Shown one piece after another: positions 2,207-49,688 of a stretch of 64,000 nt of DNA (the first letter of the stretch is position 1; each line of letters begins with the position of its first letter). This stretch comes from Quadrisphaera sp. (GTDB taxonomy: Bacteria > Actinomycetota > Actinomycetes > Actinomycetales > Quadrisphaeraceae): contig JARICT010000100.1 in the NCBI GenBank assembly GCA_029257185.1, positions 1 to 64,000 of the forward strand, in the 5' to 3' direction. The position numbers and the translations under genes were made by a program. The notes under the pieces were generated by a model. The model was given only the letters and a program-made list of their open reading frames with translations. It ran no database searches and was not told the DNA's origin.

Positions 2207-2266
2207 TCGAGCGGGGAGTCGGTGCACGCGACACGCCGCAGGTCGCCGCGCCAGGTCCCCGTTCGA
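2207..2266. repeat. REP-like hairpin, family 1 copy a
   Basis: Imperfect inverted repeat: left arm 2207-2225 and right arm 2248-2266 match at about 14 of 19 positions. Between them the loop contains the core CGACACGCCG (2229-2238). The same layout, with the core 16 bases after the start of GGGG, recurs near 27.15 kb and 47.67 kb. It fills most of the 179-base gap upstream of the Fpg/Nei gene. Confidence 0.65.
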
Positions 2267-26841: not shown

Positions 26842-27257
26842 GTCGTGTCCCTCCATCGTGCAGAGGTGATCGACCGATGAGATCGACGGCATGGATGAGG
26901 GCACCTCACTCGACTCGCGCGCTCACCTCGCTCGACACCGCGGGCGGAGCGTGTCCACGGCTATCCGCCCACCAGGGGTGCAGGAGCAGCCCCAGCGCCT
27001 CGTGCGTCGGTGGAGACCAGGTGAAGCCGGGCAACAGCGCGTCGCGGTGTCAGGGCCGGATCGGCGCCAGGCGGCTCTGACGCCCACCAGAGTCCTGCCG
27101 GGCGGCGCACCGTCCGCCGTCGCAGGACGCCGCGAGCCAGCGCGAACGGGGACCTGGTGCGTCCGACACGCCGTCAGGCGACGCGCCAGGCCCCCGCTCG
27201 ACGGGCTGAGGGCGCGGACGTCTCGCGCGGCGACGACCACGGCGGGCCGCCGTGCGC
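26842..27257. other. Intergenic region of 416 bases, no gene seen
   Basis: Between the antitoxin start and the oleD stop. No reading frame shows a plausible protein in either strand. It should hold the toxin-antitoxin promoter and operator at its left end: two GTCGATC-like direct repeats at about 26867-26890 lie just upstream of the start. Copy b of the family 1 hairpin lies at 27143-27200. The remainder shows nothing recognisable. Confidence 0.6.
27143..27200. repeat. REP-like hairpin, family 1 copy b
   Basis: The best-formed copy: arms 27143-27161 and 27182-27200 are complementary at 16 of 19 positions with a 20-base loop. The core CGACACGCCG is at 27164-27173. It aligns without gaps to the copy near 2.2 kb over about 57 bases. 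It lies just downstream of oleD, where it could also cap the operon's transcript. Confidence 0.75.
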
Positions 27258-44613: not shown

Positions 44614-46677
44614 GTGAATCCCGGCAACGATCTCCCGCGCATGCTGGGCGACCGCTACGAGGTCGGGGAGGTCCTCGGCCGCGGCGGCATGGCCGAGGTG
44701 CACCTGTGCCGCGACCACCGCCTCGAGCGGCTCGTCGCGGTGAAGATGCTGCGCAGCGACATGGCGCGCGACCCGGTGTTCCAGGCGAGGTTCCGCCGCG
44801 AGGCCCACTCGTCCGCTGCCCTGAACCACCCCAACGTCGTCGCCGTCTACGACACCGGCGAGGACTCCTTCACCGACGCCTCGGGCCACACGGCGCGCCT
44901 GCCCTACATCGTCATGGAGCACGTCGAGGGCCGAACCGTCAAGGACATCCTCGGCTCGGCGGCCGCCACCTCGAGCGGCGAGGCGGACGACGAGGGCGGC
45001 GGGGCGCGCCGCGGCCGCGGCACGTCCCGCAGCACGTCCCCGACGGCCACCGCCGAGATCGGCGTGGGGCTCGGCACCGCTGAGGCTGCCGAGATCACCT
45101 CGGGTGTGCTCACGGCGCTGGACTACAGCCACCGCCAGGGGATCGTCCACCGCGACATCAAGCCCGCCAACGTCATGGTCACGCCCGACGGGGTGGTCAA
45201 GGTCATGGACTTCGGCATCGCCAGAGCGATGTCCGACGCCTCCGCGACGATGACGCAGACGTCCGCGGTGATCGGCACCGCCCAGTACCTCTCCCCGGAG
45301 CAGGCTCGCGGGGAGAGCGTCGACCAGCGCACCGACCTGTACTCCACCGGCTGCCTGCTCTACGAGCTCCTCACCGGCAGACCTCCCTTCGTCGGCGACT
45401 CGCCGGTGTCGGTGGCTTACCAGCACGTGCGCGAGCAGCCCGACCCCCCGTCGACGTGGGACGCCACGATCAGCCCCGCGATGGACCGCGTGGTGCTGCA
45501 CGCCCTGGCCAAGGACCGTGACGACCGCTACGCCTCGGCCGGCGACTTCCGCCGCGACCTGCTGGCCGCCGCGGGGGGTCAGGACGTCGCGGCGCCGACG
45601 GTCGCCCAGTCGGCCGAGGCGACCCGCGTCATGAACGCCGGCGCCACCCGGGTGCTCGGTGCCGCGGGAGCTGCGGGAGCCGGCTACGCCCTCGGCAGCG
45701 CCGACGGCGACAGCACCACCGCCTACCCCGCGGCGGAGGACCCGTCCGCCACCGGCTCCACCGCGTCGCACCGTCTCGACGAGGCCGGCGCCGCTCCGTC
45801 GGTGCCCCGCAAGCCGCGCAAGGGCCCGATCGTCGCCGTGGTCCTCGCCATCCTGCTCGCGCTCGGGCTGCTGGCGGCGGTCCTGGCCACCCTCTACCTC
45901 CCGCGGACGCCCGACGAGCCGGCCCCGGTCCCCGTGCCGTCGGTGGTCGGCCAGAGCGAGGGGGCTGCCCGGACGTCGTTGACGGACGCAGGTCTCGTGG
46001 TGGCGGTCGACGAGGAGAGCGACGACACCGTCCCCGAGGGGGACGTCTCCGCGCAGGACCCCGAGGCCGGCGAGGAGGTGGCGGTCGACAGCACGGTGAC
46101 CCTCACGGTCTCCACCGGCCCGGAGGACGTGAGCATCCCCGACGTGAGCGGCCGGAGCGAGAGCCAGGCCACGATCCTGCTGAACGAGGCCGGGCTGACC
46201 GTCGGGGACACCTCTCGGGAGTCCAGCGGCGAGGTCGACGCCGGGGAGGTGGTCCGGACCGACCCCGGCGAGGGCGAGGTGGTCCCGCCGGGCACCGAGG
46301 TCACGCTCGTCGTCTCGAGCGGGAACTCCGACGTGCCGGACGTCGTGGGGTCCACGCAGGTCGAGGCCGCCAACCGCCTCGGTGAGCAGGGCTTCAGGAT
46401 CGACATCGTCGAGCAGCCCACCGAGGACGCCGAGCCCGGCACCGTCATCGGCCAGGATCCGCCCGGGGGCGCCCAGGCGACCCCCGGCGCGACCGTCACC
46501 GTCACCGTCGCGACCGCGCCACCGCCGCCCCCGCCGGAGCCGACCGCGACGCCGACCGACGGGTCCGAGGGGTCGTCGTCGCCCAGCAGCTCGAAGTCCT
46601 CGAGCGGGTCGAAGTCCTCCAGCAGCTCCAAGTCCTCCAGCAGCTCCAAGAAGCCGGGGCCCACGTCCGGCGGCTGA
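44614..46677 (+). CDS. pknB: PASTA-domain serine/threonine kinase PknB
   Basis: The 687-residue kinase has a glycine loop RGGMAEVHLC near 24, VAVKMLRSDM, HRDIKPANVMV, VMDFGIARAM and the activation segment TQTSAVIGTAQYLSPEQARG. That segment keeps the two threonines autophosphorylated in M. tuberculosis PknB. A Ser/Arg/Gly-rich insertion of about 36 residues (roughly 113-148) sits between MEHVEGRTVKDIL and GTAEAAEITSGVL, where M. tuberculosis PknB has a short loop. One membrane helix follows (PIVAVVLAILLALGLLAAVLATLYL). Three PASTA repeats start PVPSVVGQSEG, SIPDVSGRSES and DVPDVVGSTQV, one fewer than in M. tuberculosis. The C-terminus is a Ser/Lys tail. PknB senses muropeptide or lipid II and steers wall synthesis. 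Confidence 0.94.
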   Translation: MNPGNDLPRMLGDRYEVGEVLGRGGMAEVHLCRDHRLERLVAVKMLRSDMARDPVFQARFRREAHSSAALNHPNVVAVYDTGEDSFTDASGHTARLPYIVMEHVEGRTVKDILGSAAATSSGEADDEGGGARRGRGTSRSTSPTATAEIGVGLGTAEAAEITSGVLTALDYSHRQGIVHRDIKPANVMVTPDGVVKVMDFGIARAMSDASATMTQTSAVIGTAQYLSPEQARGESVDQRTDLYSTGCLLYELLTGRPPFVGDSPVSVAYQHVREQPDPPSTWDATISPAMDRVVLHALAKDRDDRYASAGDFRRDLLAAAGGQDVAAPTVAQSAEATRVMNAGATRVLGAAGAAGAGYALGSADGDSTTAYPAAEDPSATGSTASHRLDEAGAAPSVPRKPRKGPIVAVVLAILLALGLLAAVLATLYLPRTPDEPAPVPVPSVVGQSEGAARTSLTDAGLVVAVDEESDDTVPEGDVSAQDPEAGEEVAVDSTVTLTVSTGPEDVSIPDVSGRSESQATILLNEAGLTVGDTSRESSGEVDAGEVVRTDPGEGEVVPPGTEVTLVVSSGNSDVPDVVGSTQVEAANRLGEQGFRIDIVEQPTEDAEPGTVIGQDPPGGAQATPGATVTVTVATAPPPPPPEPTATPTDGSEGSSSPSSSKSSSGSKSSSSSKSSSSSKKPGPTSGG

Positions 46678-46686
46678 GCGCCCCGG

Positions 46687-47313
46687 TCAGCGGGAGAGCA
46701 GCGGGGCCATGCCCTCGGAGCGCGCCACCGCGCCGTCGTCGCCCGCCATCGCGAGCCAGTTCGCGAGCAGCCGGTGGCCACCCTGCGTGAGCACCGACTC
46801 GGGGTGGAACTGCACCCCGTGCAGCGGGAGCGTCCGGTGGCGCAGGCCCATCACCACGCCGCGCTCGGTGGCGGCGGTGACGGTGAGGTCGTCGGGCACG
46901 GTGCCGGCGACCACGGCCAGGGAGTGGTAGCGGGTGGCGGTGAACGGGGTGGGGAGGCCGTCCAGCACCCCGCCACCGCCGTGCTCCACCGCAGAGGTCT
47001 TGCCGTGGAGCAGCTCCTCGGCGTGCGTGACGGTGGCCCCGTAGACCTCGGCGAGCACCTGGTGGCCGAGGCACACCCCCAGCAGGGGCGTCGACGTCTG
47101 CGCGGCGCGGCGCACCAGGTCGGCGCTCACGCCGGCCTCCGCGGGCGTGCCGGGGCCCGGAGAGAGCAGCACGGCGTCCGCCTCGTCGGCCGCCTCGGCG
47201 CCGACCGCGTCGTTGCGCACCACGTGGCAGTCGGCCCCGAGCTGGGTGAGGTACCCGACGATCGTGTACACGAAGCTGTCGTAGTTGTCGACGACGAGGA
47301 CCTTGAGGCTCAC
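46687..47313 (-). CDS. trpG: Glutamine amidotransferase subunit TrpG/PabA
   Basis: The 208-residue class I amidotransferase hydrolyses glutamine and passes ammonia to anthranilate or aminodeoxychorismate synthase. It has VVDNYDSFVYTIVGYL at the start, the catalytic cysteine in GVCLGHQVLAE near residue 83, and the His-Glu pair in GVQFHPESVLTQGG. The choice between tryptophan (TrpG) and folate (PabA) use, or a shared role, cannot be made from sequence. Actinomycete genomes usually carry this gene next to pknB, as here. GTG start at the beginning of VSLKVLVVDNYD. It is convergent with pknB (nine bases between stops). Confidence 0.95.
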   Translation of the reverse strand: MSLKVLVVDNYDSFVYTIVGYLTQLGADCHVVRNDAVGAEAADEADAVLLSPGPGTPAEAGVSADLVRRAAQTSTPLLGVCLGHQVLAEVYGATVTHAEELLHGKTSAVEHGGGGVLDGLPTPFTATRYHSLAVVAGTVPDDLTVTAATERGVVMGLRHRTLPLHGVQFHPESVLTQGGHRLLANWLAMAGDDGAVARSEGMAPLLSR

Positions 47314-47494
47314 ACCGCCATCGTCCCACCGGCGGGCGGTCGGCCGGCCCGGGCTCCTCGGTGGCCCCGCTCCGGCCGCAGGTCTTCGCCCGCACCAGCG
47401 CGCATCGCCAGGTCGCCCGCACCCTTTACCCCGGTCCCCTCCACCTGCGACGGCCGTGGCCACCCACCCTTGCCTCGGCCACGCACCACGACCT

Positions 47495-47619
47495 CGGTGA
47501 TCATGAAGCATCCGCCCCCGATCACGGTGATCATGGGGCATCCGCACCCCGATCACGGTGATCATGGGACATCCGCCCCTCTGCACCATGAAAGAGGGCT
47601 GATCCTTCATGATCACCGG
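47495..47619. repeat. GGTGATCATG repeat group A (three direct, one inverted)
   Basis: Copies at 47495-47518, 47525-47550 and 47556-47580 repeat the pattern CGGTGATCATGnnnCATCCG with 30-31 base spacing. The fourth copy, 47596-47619, is inverted: its reverse complement CGGTGATCATGAAGGATCAG closely matches the first copy. Each unit is centred on TGATCA, itself a palindrome with a GATC site. A transcript could form a long stem between copies 1 and 4. Confidence 0.85.
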
Positions 47620-47660
47620 GCTGGGGGCGGCTGGAGGGGCTGGGGGCGGCGGGCTGAGGG

Positions 47661-47872
47661 GACCGGGGACCTCGTGCGCCCGACACGCCGCGCCACACCA
47701 CACCAAGCCCCCGCTCGCGCGACCAGGACCACACCAGATCCCCGCTCGCGCGACCAGACCCGCACCAAGCCCCCGCTCGCGCGACCAGGACCACACCAGA
47801 TCCCCGCTCGTGCGACCAGACCCGCACCAAGCCCCCGCTCGCGCGACCAGGACCACACCGGGTCCCCGATGG
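47661..47872. repeat. Family 1 hairpin copy c with 31-bp tandem array
   Basis: Left arm at about 47662-47680, core CGACACGCCG at 47681-47690, then tandem units of exactly 31 bases at 47702, 47733, 47764, 47795 and 47826, with a partial sixth from 47857. All share CCCGCTCGCGCGACCAG (one copy has a T for C). Units alternate between two forms (AAGC...GGACCAC and AGAT...GACCCGC), so the true period is 62 bases. Each unit carries the right-arm sequence of the family 1 hairpin, so the array looks like an expansion of that arm. Confidence 0.85.
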
Positions 47873-47914
47873 ACGTGCCGGCCCACCGACTCGTCCGCGC
47901 CCCCACCCCCGCCA

Positions 47915-48008
47915 CGGTGACCATGAAGCTCTAGCCCACCCCTGATCGGTGATCATGCAACTTCGGCCCCCTGACGCCACCAGAAAGGGCCGATCCGCCA
48001 TGATCACC
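47915..48008. repeat. GGTGATCATG repeat group B (two direct, one inverted)
   Basis: Copies at 47915-47937 and 47947-47970 are direct; 47987-48008 is inverted. They are more diverged than group A but keep CGGTGAtCATG and a GGCCC or GCCC end. Group B mirrors group A on the other side of the tandem array. Confidence 0.75.
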
Positions 48009-48026
48009 GCGGTAGTTCCCCAGACC

Positions 48027-48182
48027 TCAACCCACGGTGCCGTCATTGGTGGGCAGGATGCCCGCGACAGCGGGGAACACCGCGGTGAAGAGCACGGCCA
48101 CCAGCAGGAGCGCGAGGACCACCGCCGTCGTCACCCTCAGCCACAGGGGTCCGGGCAGCGCTCGCCACAGCCAGCCGTACAC
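48027..48182 (-). CDS. Small single-helix membrane protein of the sortase/crgA cluster
   Basis: The 51-residue protein begins VYGWLWRALPGPLWLRV, followed by one hydrophobic helix (TTAVVLALLLVAVLFTAVFPAVA) and ends ILPTNDGTVG. This GWLWR.LPGP pattern followed by a helix and a P.ND..V end is familiar from small uncharacterised actinomycete proteins encoded near the class E sortase and crgA. GTG 48182 lies seven bases after the sortase stop. The function is unknown; operon position suggests a link to cell envelope or division. Confidence 0.75.
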   Translation of the reverse strand: MYGWLWRALPGPLWLRVTTAVVLALLLVAVLFTAVFPAVAGILPTNDGTVG

Positions 48183-48189
48183 GCCCGCC

Positions 48190-48927
48190 TCAGCCCTGGG
48201 CCCGGGCCGGCGCCGCGGCAGGCTCCAGGGCCTGGGGGGCGCCCTGCTCGCGCGGGGTCTGCGCCACCAGGTCGGCGTGCACCACGTAGCGCAGCCGGGC
48301 GGAGAACCTCGGGTGGCACGCCGTCAGCGTCAGGGCCCCGGCGGTCGGGGCGTCGCCCGGCTCGCCGGGGACGGGCGCGATGACGTCGACGCGGTCCGGC
48401 GTCACGATCTCGTGGCCGCTCACGCGGTAGGAGAACCAGCCCTGCAGCGTCTCCACGACGACGGGGTCGCCGGCGACCAGCTCGTCGATCCGGGACAGCG
48501 GGGCCCCGTAGGTGGTGCGGTGCCCGGCCAGGGCGAGGTTCCCGATCTCCCCGGGCATCGCCGTCCCGTCGTAGCGCCCCAGCACCCCCCGGTCGAGGAC
48601 GGACCCCCGGTCGGTCCCCTCCAGGGCCGCCACCGACCACCCCGGCCCGAAGCGGGGGACGTGGACGAGCCCGACGGCGTCCCCGCTCGGCGGAGCCTGC
48701 GTCCTCACGGGATCCCCACCGCCCGAGGTCGTCGCCCGCTCCGTCGCTCCCGCGAAGGCCCCGGCCGACGCGAAGCGGGCCTCGACGGCGTCGGACGTCG
48801 CCGCGGACGCGGCACCGGCGGTGACGTCGGTCCACACGAGCTGCCACCCCAGGAAGAGGAGCACCAGCGTTCCGGCCGTCAGGAGCAGCTCGCCGAGCAC
48901 CGAGCGGGGCGTGGCGCGGCGGTTCAC
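48190..48927 (-). CDS. Class E sortase
   Basis: The 245-residue membrane-anchored transpeptidase has a hydrophobic N-terminal helix (LGELLLTAGTLVLLFLGWQLVW), a disordered Ala/Thr-rich segment and a sortase core. Catalytic residues are His in LALAGHRTTYG and Cys in LTLTACHPRFSARLRYVVHAD, with the following Arg. Sortases attach LPxTG or LAxTG proteins to the wall or stitch pili. The GTG overlaps the DUF881 stop by four bases. Confidence 0.9.
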   Translation of the reverse strand: MNRRATPRSVLGELLLTAGTLVLLFLGWQLVWTDVTAGAASAATSDAVEARFASAGAFAGATERATTSGGGDPVRTQAPPSGDAVGLVHVPRFGPGWSVAALEGTDRGSVLDRGVLGRYDGTAMPGEIGNLALAGHRTTYGAPLSRIDELVAGDPVVVETLQGWFSYRVSGHEIVTPDRVDVIAPVPGEPGDAPTAGALTLTACHPRFSARLRYVVHADLVAQTPREQGAPQALEPAAAPARAQG

Positions 48928-49688
48928 GCGCCGGGGGCGCTGGCGTGGTCCAGCTCCAGCGGTCCCTCCCACGCCGGCACGGTCAGCGAGCTCTCCTCGG
49001 AGAGCTCCCACCCGAGCCCGAGGGCCTGGAACGCCCGGTAGTCCTGGACGCTGGCGTCGCCGTCCAGCGCAGCCGTCAGGGCCGCCGGGTCACCGACCGC
49101 CCGCACCTCGTAGGGCGGGGCGTAGAGCCGTCCCTGGAGGCGCAGCGTGCTGCCCACGCACCGCACCGCCGACGTCGCGATGAGGGGCTGGTCCATGAGG
49201 GACACCGCCGTGGCCCCGCCCGCCCACAGCGCGTTGACCACCGCCTGCAGGTCCTCCTGGTGCACGAGCAGGAGGTCGGGGTCGACGTCGACGACGGTCC
49301 CGGGCGGCGCGTCGTCGAGCACCACCCTCACGCCCTGCCCGCTCGCGCCGGCGACGGCAGCGGCGGCGCCGAGGTCCTGGGCTCGCGCGGCCAGGGCGCG
49401 CGCGACGGGATCGCCGGCGTCGGACGAGAGGGCGTCGACCTGCTGGCGCAGGGCCTCGACGTCAGCGGTCCGCGCCTGCACGCGCCGCTCCTCCTGGGCC
49501 ACCAGCGTCGGGAGGTCGGCAGCGTCGGCGCGGAGCTGCTCCCCGTCGGCGGCGCGCGCGGACGTGGCGAACAGGGCCCCGGCGAGGGCGAACGTCACGA
49601 GCGTGCCGATCGCCGCGGGGCCCCCGGCGCGCGGCGTCCGGGCCGGCGCCGACCTCGGGGCCGGCGAGACCGTTCCCGGCTCGTCCAC
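48924..49688 (-). CDS. DUF881 family protein
   Basis: The 254-residue protein has one N-terminal membrane helix (AAIGTLVTFALAGALFATSA), then a coiled coil (LVAQEERRVQARTADVEALRQQVDAL), then the DUF881 core with GVRVVLDDAPPG, VDPDLLLVHQEDLQAVVNALWAGGA and ALLIAT-like and GRLYAPPYEVRAVGD segments. Such proteins lie beside crgA in actinomycetes and may act in division, but have no established activity. GTG 49688 chosen as the last good start before the helix; an open frame continues upstream. It is divergent from crgA. Confidence 0.85.
   Translation of the reverse strand: MDEPGTVSPAPRSAPARTPRAGGPAAIGTLVTFALAGALFATSARAADGEQLRADAADLPTLVAQEERRVQARTADVEALRQQVDALSSDAGDPVARALAARAQDLGAAAAVAGASGQGVRVVLDDAPPGTVVDVDPDLLLVHQEDLQAVVNALWAGGATAVSLMDQPLIATSAVRCVGSTLRLQGRLYAPPYEVRAVGDPAALTAALDGDASVQDYRAFQALGLGWELSEESSLTVPAWEGPLELDHASAPGA

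Follow-up and report, generated by a model that had tools for sequence, protein, structure and literature searches.

What is the odd island of repeats between a putative trpG-like gene and a gene for a small membrane protein in this Quadrisphaera genome, and how did a 31-bp tandem array arise in its middle? The window (the whole 64,000-nucleotide stretch of DNA that was analysed) belongs to a genome of 3.05 Mb in 178 contigs that is 90.5% complete. Our main reading, to which we give a joint probability of about one half, is that two dispersed palindromic repeats, here called families A and B, have piled up locally to form the island, and that these are REP/REPIN-like hairpin repeats acting as DNA and spread by a trans-acting factor; their mobility and function we infer. 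The features of the window are as follows.

46687 to 47313, minus strand: flanking gene, putative and trpG-like, with a match in 12/12 relatives
47495 to 47618, no strand assigned: family-A element 1, made of two outer + half-units (47495, 47525) and a core hairpin; fold z -4.99 over 47490-47623
47557 to 47617, no strand assigned: 61-bp core hairpin of family-A element 1, in which the centres of a + unit and an inverted one are 51 bp apart, from single-stranded DNA folding and alignment
47660 to 47680, plus strand: degenerate family-B left arm, which passes the arm filter; the fold of 47655-47735 is no stronger than in shuffles (z +1.65)
47681 to 47690, plus strand: conserved family-B decamer CGACACGCCG, from the genome-wide decamer comparison
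47696 to 47717, plus strand: first copy of the family-B right arm, profile match 22.9 bits
47727 to 47872, plus strand: the "31-bp array", five more right arms (47727, 47758, 47789, 47820, 47851), profile matches 18.0-25.2 bits
47915 to 48009, no strand assigned: family-A element 2, made of an outer + half-unit (47915, one mismatch) and a core hairpin; fold z -2.19
47948 to 48008, no strand assigned: family-A core hairpin 2, 61 bp; fold z -3.57 over 47942-48014
48027 to 48182, minus strand: flanking gene for a small membrane protein, from the gene call
2208 to 2265, plus strand: family-B copy, 58 bp, with CGACACGCCG at 2229, from arm filter and profile; fold z -0.32
27143 to 27200, plus strand: family-B copy, 58 bp, with CGACACGCCG at 27164, from arm filter and profile; fold z -1.98

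The small membrane-protein gene is presumably crgA. A search of Rfam with positions 46600-49000 gave no match at gathering score, and two matches far below it had E values of 0.16 and 1.7. All 12 family relatives contain a trpG match, and in six of them the small gene adjoins trpG across a gap of about 27-150 bp (an estimate based on where the protein matches end) compared with 713 bp here, which bears out the description, in an earlier sequence-only reading, of an island separating otherwise close genes. None of GGTGATCATG, CGACACGCCG and the array core was found at the trpG loci of these 12 relatives, and the island is absent from all of them. That reading had named, as evidence against itself, distant species that share the sequence at this locus, and within the 12 family relatives compared no such case was found. 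The trpG gap of the nearest relative, G001, holds a different short inverted repeat, CTGCCAGCAGCGC ... (L180:809-872).

The island itself (47495-48009) contains seven CGGTGATCATG units, of which six are exact and the one at 47915 has one mismatch. Group 1 has + units at 47495, 47525 and 47556 and a - unit at 47608-47618; group 2 has + units at 47915 and 47947 and a - unit at 47999-48009. Related units therefore lie on both sides of the 31-bp array, and each group ends in an inverted unit, both as had been noticed from the letters. With at most one mismatch the unit occurs 14 times in the window, where 0.70 occurrences are expected from 100 dinucleotide shuffles (largest 4). The proposed formation of stems was likewise supported, as both inverted pairs fold as single-stranded DNA better than 200 shuffles (z -3.48 and -3.57). 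Folds of the whole groups gave z -4.99 (47490-47623) and z -2.19 (47910-48014).

Packing of methylation-type sites was also confirmed, with 13 GATC and 8 CATG in the 515-bp island and 294 and 159 in the 64 kb, and six of the seven units are centred on TGATCA. This could suggest a methylation target, in which islands of GATC or CATG are read by a methyltransferase-dependent protein. However, 11 of the 13 GATC and all eight CATG fall within the two family-A elements (six and seven, respectively, inside units), so the density follows from elements that themselves contain these sites, and the family-B consensus has neither motif. We regard such a role as very improbable. The wider idea of a target for a sequence-specific protein holds loosely, in that GGTGATCATG ends recur while stems change, and goes no further than that.

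The two groups of the island are distinct copies of one palindromic repeat that is dispersed in the genome, family A. This inverted repeat, 60-61 bp long, has GGTGATCATG at its ends and inner arms that are able to pair. The genome has 67 exact GGTGATCATG sites, all covered by 34 fetched stretches together with the window; 41 are inside 16 family-A elements at 12 loci and 26 are single. Cores consisting of a + unit and an inverted unit measure 61 bp in 14 cases and 60 bp in one, and the 16th element was counted from unit clusters instead of from the core list (a chance cluster, L030, was not counted as an element). Extra units, where present, are + to the left of the core and - to the right, mostly in steps of 30-31 bp here. 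Unit copies lacking inverted partners elsewhere had been named as speaking against the earlier reading. Such copies exist as the 26 single sites, but they tell little, because 23 of them are inside called genes and the bare 10-mer is present in 59/59 relatives. At one locus (L049:1951-3383), a single 313-aa gene with a low gene score, which we take to resemble actinomycete endonuclease-like proteins, has a family-A element on either side, and a run of GGACCA hexamer repeats lies beside one element (L049:2100-2210).

The array belongs to the second family. The decamer CGACACGCCG occurs 79 times in the genome (34 times for its reversed control), including positions 47681, 2229 and 27164 of the window. 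Examination of 69 of the 79 sites, 66 in 60 stretches and three in the window, gave 37 copies of family B after four false rows were removed from 41. In family B, an inverted repeat of 58 bp with the consensus CGAGCGGGGACCTCGTGCGcGCGACACGCCGcgaGgcGCCGCACCGGCTCCCCGCTCG, CGACACGCCG stands 21 nt from one end, and the distance between the arms is constant in 34 of the 37 copies. For none of the three copies in the window is the fold clearly stronger than in shuffles (z +1.65, -0.32 and -1.98). Across the family, the right arm recurs at an offset of +31, with 12.8 of 19 positions identical compared with 5.2-7.3 at other offsets between 18 and 47. A profile of the right arm was made from 31 of the 37 copies, excluding the three window copies and three that are not 58 nt long, and both strands of the window were scanned with it. 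The top matches were five array units (22.9-25.2 bits). Next, at 17.0-21.4 bits, came the final array unit together with the arms belonging to the two window copies outside the island, and then a match of 11.8 bits; the best score in 20 mononucleotide shuffles of the window was 16.5 bits. Since the array units score highest for this arm, the array is the arm tandemly repeated: it arises from one family-B copy whose right arm has been amplified, and the other 36 copies of family B are elsewhere. Local tandem duplication of that arm would account for its growth.

Families A and B occur together at only one of the 12 family-A loci of the genome. Some other arrangements of the same signals were seen. 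A CATGATCAC unit stands immediately before CGACACGCCG at L289:334 of the source genome, an isolated case of A and B as neighbours beyond the window. At L286:332-355, L302:426-450 and L309:377, two CGACACGCCG (or CGGCGTGTC) copies face each other in inverted orientation about 14-16 bp apart, without family-B arms. A decamer hairpin at L301:393 of the source genome has an AATGCTG / CAGCAT stem, a stem type also seen in genome G013.

These results bear on the proposal that the island was inserted as one element, with the two groups as its ends. The groups do flank the array on both sides and the gap is short in relatives, and a comparable layout recurs at several loci of G013 (single contig), where a roughly 63-nt hairpin, in which 23 nt precede the decamer, is flanked by + units on its left and - units on its right. 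Fourteen such hairpins were found at 13 of 20 fetched G013 loci, which had been chosen for unit clusters. But the source genome has family A without the array at 11 other loci, the array derives from another repeat family, and no clear target duplications were seen at the repeat borders. The two genes framed by arrays in G013 look housekeeping-like; this also speaks against one insertion, and for the same reason autonomous cargo genes in the G013 composites were rejected. The claim that the groups bracket the array as inserted ends is thus unsupported, and a single insertion appears improbable, although slightly less so than a methylation target.

The 20 G013 contexts comprised seven convergent gaps, 11 tandem, one divergent and one overlapping a gene call. 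Half-unit arrays in this genome have a spacing that is near-constant within a locus (57, 42 and 129 bp) and differs between loci (L273:1121-1741, L284:1527-1701, L270:1154-1540), and at a glance the decamer lies on mixed strands along the loci. A composite pattern, TGATCATG followed by CGACACGCC within 8-38 nt, gave 55 matches in 40 of 394 genomes of the class, with one in G013 and none in the source genome. Nineteen matches have a total length of 28-29, including all those in G708, G736, G751, G759, G794 and G808 (2-4 copies each). The other 36 have scattered lengths, include four further two-copy genomes and in part resemble shared coding sequence, and were taken as background. The same composite pattern is present in at least 120 viral stretches. 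A phage origin of the family-A pair was considered and is unsupported, as the pair was found in three stretches of the whole viral collection, with five, seven and six of 10 inner pairs.

The position of the repeats relative to genes raises the possibility that the hairpins are transcription terminators or stabilisers of RNA 3' ends. No family-B copy (0/37) lies over a called gene. Of the 26 gaps holding family B with both flanks called (11 of the 37 copies are without one or both flanking calls), 16 are convergent, 10 tandem and none divergent, whereas 60 baseline gaps comprise six convergent, 41 tandem and 13 divergent (Fisher p 1.7e-6 for convergent and 0.008 for divergent gaps); the size of this effect is rough, because the gene score cut-off was 12 in the A-holding stretches of the baseline and 8 in the family-B contexts, which are stretches of about 800 bp. 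Family B may therefore tolerate or prefer the 3' ends of genes. A terminator role would agree with this bias, with the stable folds of both family-A cores in the window, and with element 2, whose end is separated by 18 bp from the stop codon of the small gene upstream.

Several observations weigh against this role. Fifteen of the 16 family-A elements lie between called genes, in 12 gaps of which nine are tandem, two divergent and one convergent (the right-hand gene call at L046 starts inside the element and that at L036 is doubtful), and the element at L021 lies within an open frame that scores as coding. No T-run is present in the approximately 20 nt after either window family-A element, on either strand. 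In addition, the decamer ignores gene direction in the 10 tandem family-B gaps, where it runs along the genes in four and opposite in six. We consider terminators or RNA stabilisers unlikely, though clearly less so than a single insertion.

Evidence on the hairpins themselves comes from comparison between genomes. Among 297 genomes of the order, eight have the exact family-A pair and none has a same-composition control pattern; this control was used because the reversed GGTGATCATG contains CTAG. Several copies occur in each of G000, G001, G011, G016 and G027 and one each in G002, G093 and G120, with poor inner pairing in G093 (6/10) and G120 (3/10). A pair of the shorter TGATCATG was found in 14 of 396 genomes of the phylum, with several copies only in G000 and G013. 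At least 115 stretches of a named genome collection contain the pair, and the matches listed include 81 pairs at 80 loci. Among these matches, 43 of the 81 pairs have at least 8 of 10 inner pairs, with spans of 50, 52, 53, 60-62 and 72-73, and all 43 are, by their titles, actinomycete records, assigned to Micromonospora, Catellatospora, Klenkia, Geodermatophilus, Goekera, Phytoactinopolyspora, Thermobifida and Quadrisphaera and to metagenome-assembled genomes. The other 38 of the listed pairs are less well paired and include every match outside Actinomycetes. Thus, predicted hairpins related to those of the island occur in Micromonosporaceae, Geodermatophilaceae and other actinomycetes.

Two further types of arrangement were observed in these records. 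A second hairpin type in Micromonospora (L077, L094, L117, L130) has GACGGG-like or related stems and a loop without CGACACGCCG, in some cases with GGAGATC. Pseudonocardia (L115:4384-5838) contains long clusters of alternating - and + TGATCA units, often 53-58 bp apart.

An alignment was made of 46 hairpins of 61 bp, 14 from the source genome, seven from relatives and 25 others, the last being all the 61-bp pairs among the matches listed (L107 was omitted as a duplicate of L248). In 35 of the 46, eight or more of the 10 inner pairs are formed. Changes on both sides were seen at 12 of 22 pairs (171 cells), and the covariation score was 0.405 compared with 0.113 in shuffles (0 of 500 reached 0.405) and at most 0.142 for slid structures; the shuffles lose relatedness and the slid structures keep it. 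Constancy of the hairpin ends is built into this comparison because GGTGATCATG was the search key, but pairing of the inner arms was not part of the search. The predicted stems thus differ between lineages yet remain paired. Within the source genome, covariation of the arms is weak for family A (p 0.019 for n = 16, a set including one false core, L032, and p 0.036 for n = 15 after its removal) and absent for family B (p 0.21, n = 37), so that a hairpin requirement inside one genome is not supported.

In other lineages the two families have a common architecture. Of the 25 hairpins of 61 bp that do not come from Quadrisphaeraceae, 17 contain CGACACGCCG with at most one mismatch, and in all 17 it stands at column 23 from one end, while shuffling of the inner sequence placed it in 0.12 hairpins on average and in at most one of 25. 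It was found in 0 of the 21 61-bp hairpins from Quadrisphaeraceae. A scan for hairpins centred on the decamer gave 17 at 35 sites (named loci, among the matches listed), nine at 16 in G013 and 22 at 66 in the source-genome family-B stretches; none was found at two sites in the stretches from G016, G027, G011 and G002, and two control motifs gave none at 13 and seven sites.

The regular spacing of the units suggests another explanation, namely that they are operator-like double-stranded sites, at which a host protein would occupy several half-sites on one face of the helix, with the inverted pair and the tandem half-units forming a cooperative array. The 36 spacings between neighbouring centres here take only the values 20-21, 30-31, 50-51, 72 and 82, a comb of approximately 10.2-10.3 bp (R 0.97). 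The 43 hairpin-type pairs elsewhere, among the matches listed, span 50-53, 60-62 and 72-73, and the arms of family B are conserved without covarying. The 36 spacings are, however, copies of few events, and the comb is broken by same-direction spacings of 12 and 15 in Actinopolymorpha and Phytoactinopolyspora, 57 in Pseudonocardia, and 32-73 and 129 in G013. The comb hints at helical phasing, but since other lineages break it our conclusion does not rest on spacing. A binding site also has no need of inner arms that differ between lineages and stay complementary. Operator arrays are the strongest of the rival readings and nevertheless a rather unlikely one, a little ahead of terminators.

We therefore return to REP/REPIN-like hairpin repeats. 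A DNA hairpin rather than an RNA one is favoured by the constant signals, by stems that vary from lineage to lineage and still pair, by the indifference of the decamer to gene direction in tandem gaps, and by the lack of T-tails after the window elements. The elements would act as DNA, either as a cruciform or as a single-strand hairpin, as is thought for REPINs. A trans-acting factor may read the constant end or the decamer, in either case together with the hairpin, and copy or keep the elements. The Y1_Tnp domain (PF01797) had no match in the source genome (90.5% complete). Among the 22 other genomes with a family-A pair it was absent from 19, including G013, G002 and G016 (estimated 100% complete), and present in three, in two of which (L104 and L115) the pair hardly pairs inside (4/10 and 3/10). 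As far as the accessible part of PMC6006769 indicates, PF01797 covers RAYTs only in part, so a divergent RAYT could have been missed. Flanking words of 2-9 nt showed no clear excess of matches over cross-pairing in 37 family-B, 15 family-A and 25 other copies. Points that weigh against the main reading are the weak or lacking covariation within the source genome, the unremarkable folds of the window family-B copies, the meeting of A and B at a single locus, the lack of composite matches in the source genome and of decamer hairpins in the G016, G027, G011 and G002 stretches, the element at L021 in a coding-like frame, and the failure to find a mobilising enzyme.

A broader hypothesis can be offered tentatively, with the odds somewhat against it. 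Actinomycetes may carry a widespread superfamily of dispersed hairpin repeats with GGTGATCATG ends and/or CGACACGCCG at 21-23 nt from one end and with freely changing paired stems, whose multiplication depends on an enzyme other than a RAYT; this would represent a second, independently evolved REPIN-like system. If this is true, a REPIN-like lifestyle can run on an enzyme other than RAYT, and the repeats provide a defined sequence for finding that enzyme. Reading the locus as a pile-up of two families explains the odd island and its 31-bp array together and advises caution in calling such arrays the ends of mobile elements. No earlier description of these repeats was found in the open-access literature, among the matches listed.

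Several known systems share some of these characters. Intrinsic terminators differ from both family-A elements of the window in the T-run directly after the hairpin. Miniature inverted-repeat elements (MITEs) of DDE transposons are short non-autonomous inverted repeats in many copies; unlike these, the 37 family-B, 15 family-A and 25 other copies have no clear target-site duplication. The hairpin-plus-iteron origins of ssDNA viruses have a variable stem, a constant motif in the loop region and adjacent tandem copies of an arm, but the likeness is one of analogy only, as the hairpins described here are chromosomal and present in dozens of copies per genome.

CGTC-tagged REPs are palindromic, carry a constant tag, apparently have no dedicated transposase and occur mostly as head-to-head dimers, and Actinobacteria are not among the five phyla listed for them in the accessible part of PMC3733652. 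The present repeats resemble them in being palindromic with a constant signal and in that a RAYT was not found in the source genome. According to the same part of that source, the CGTC of these REPs is unpaired and terminates a palindrome of 20-40 bp on one side, whereas here GGTGATCATG is paired at both ends or CGACACGCCG lies inside. The elements here are 58-61 bp long with paired ends, and their consensus starts with CGAGC or GGTGA.

REPINs, or REP doublets, are tied to RAYT enzymes in the accessible part of PMC3116915, and in this they differ from the present repeats, given the lack of a Y1_Tnp match in the source genome and in 19 of the 22 other genomes with the family-A pair. The REPIN foot tag GTAG (or GTGG) was not seen by eye here, and the aligned 61-bp hairpins start with GGTGATCATG. 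A constant decamer inside the hairpin, as found here, goes unmentioned for REPINs in that part of PMC3116915. The same source describes REPINs as short dispersed extragenic inverted doublets with preferred distances and predicted hairpins, accompanied by single remnants and local tandem clusters (PMC3116915). As far as this description extends, families A and B are like REPINs in being inverted doublets with a preferred spacing and a predicted hairpin, in their many dispersed and mostly extragenic copies (15 of 16 in gaps for family A; 37 for family B, with none over a called gene), and in the presence of single remnants and local tandem clusters.
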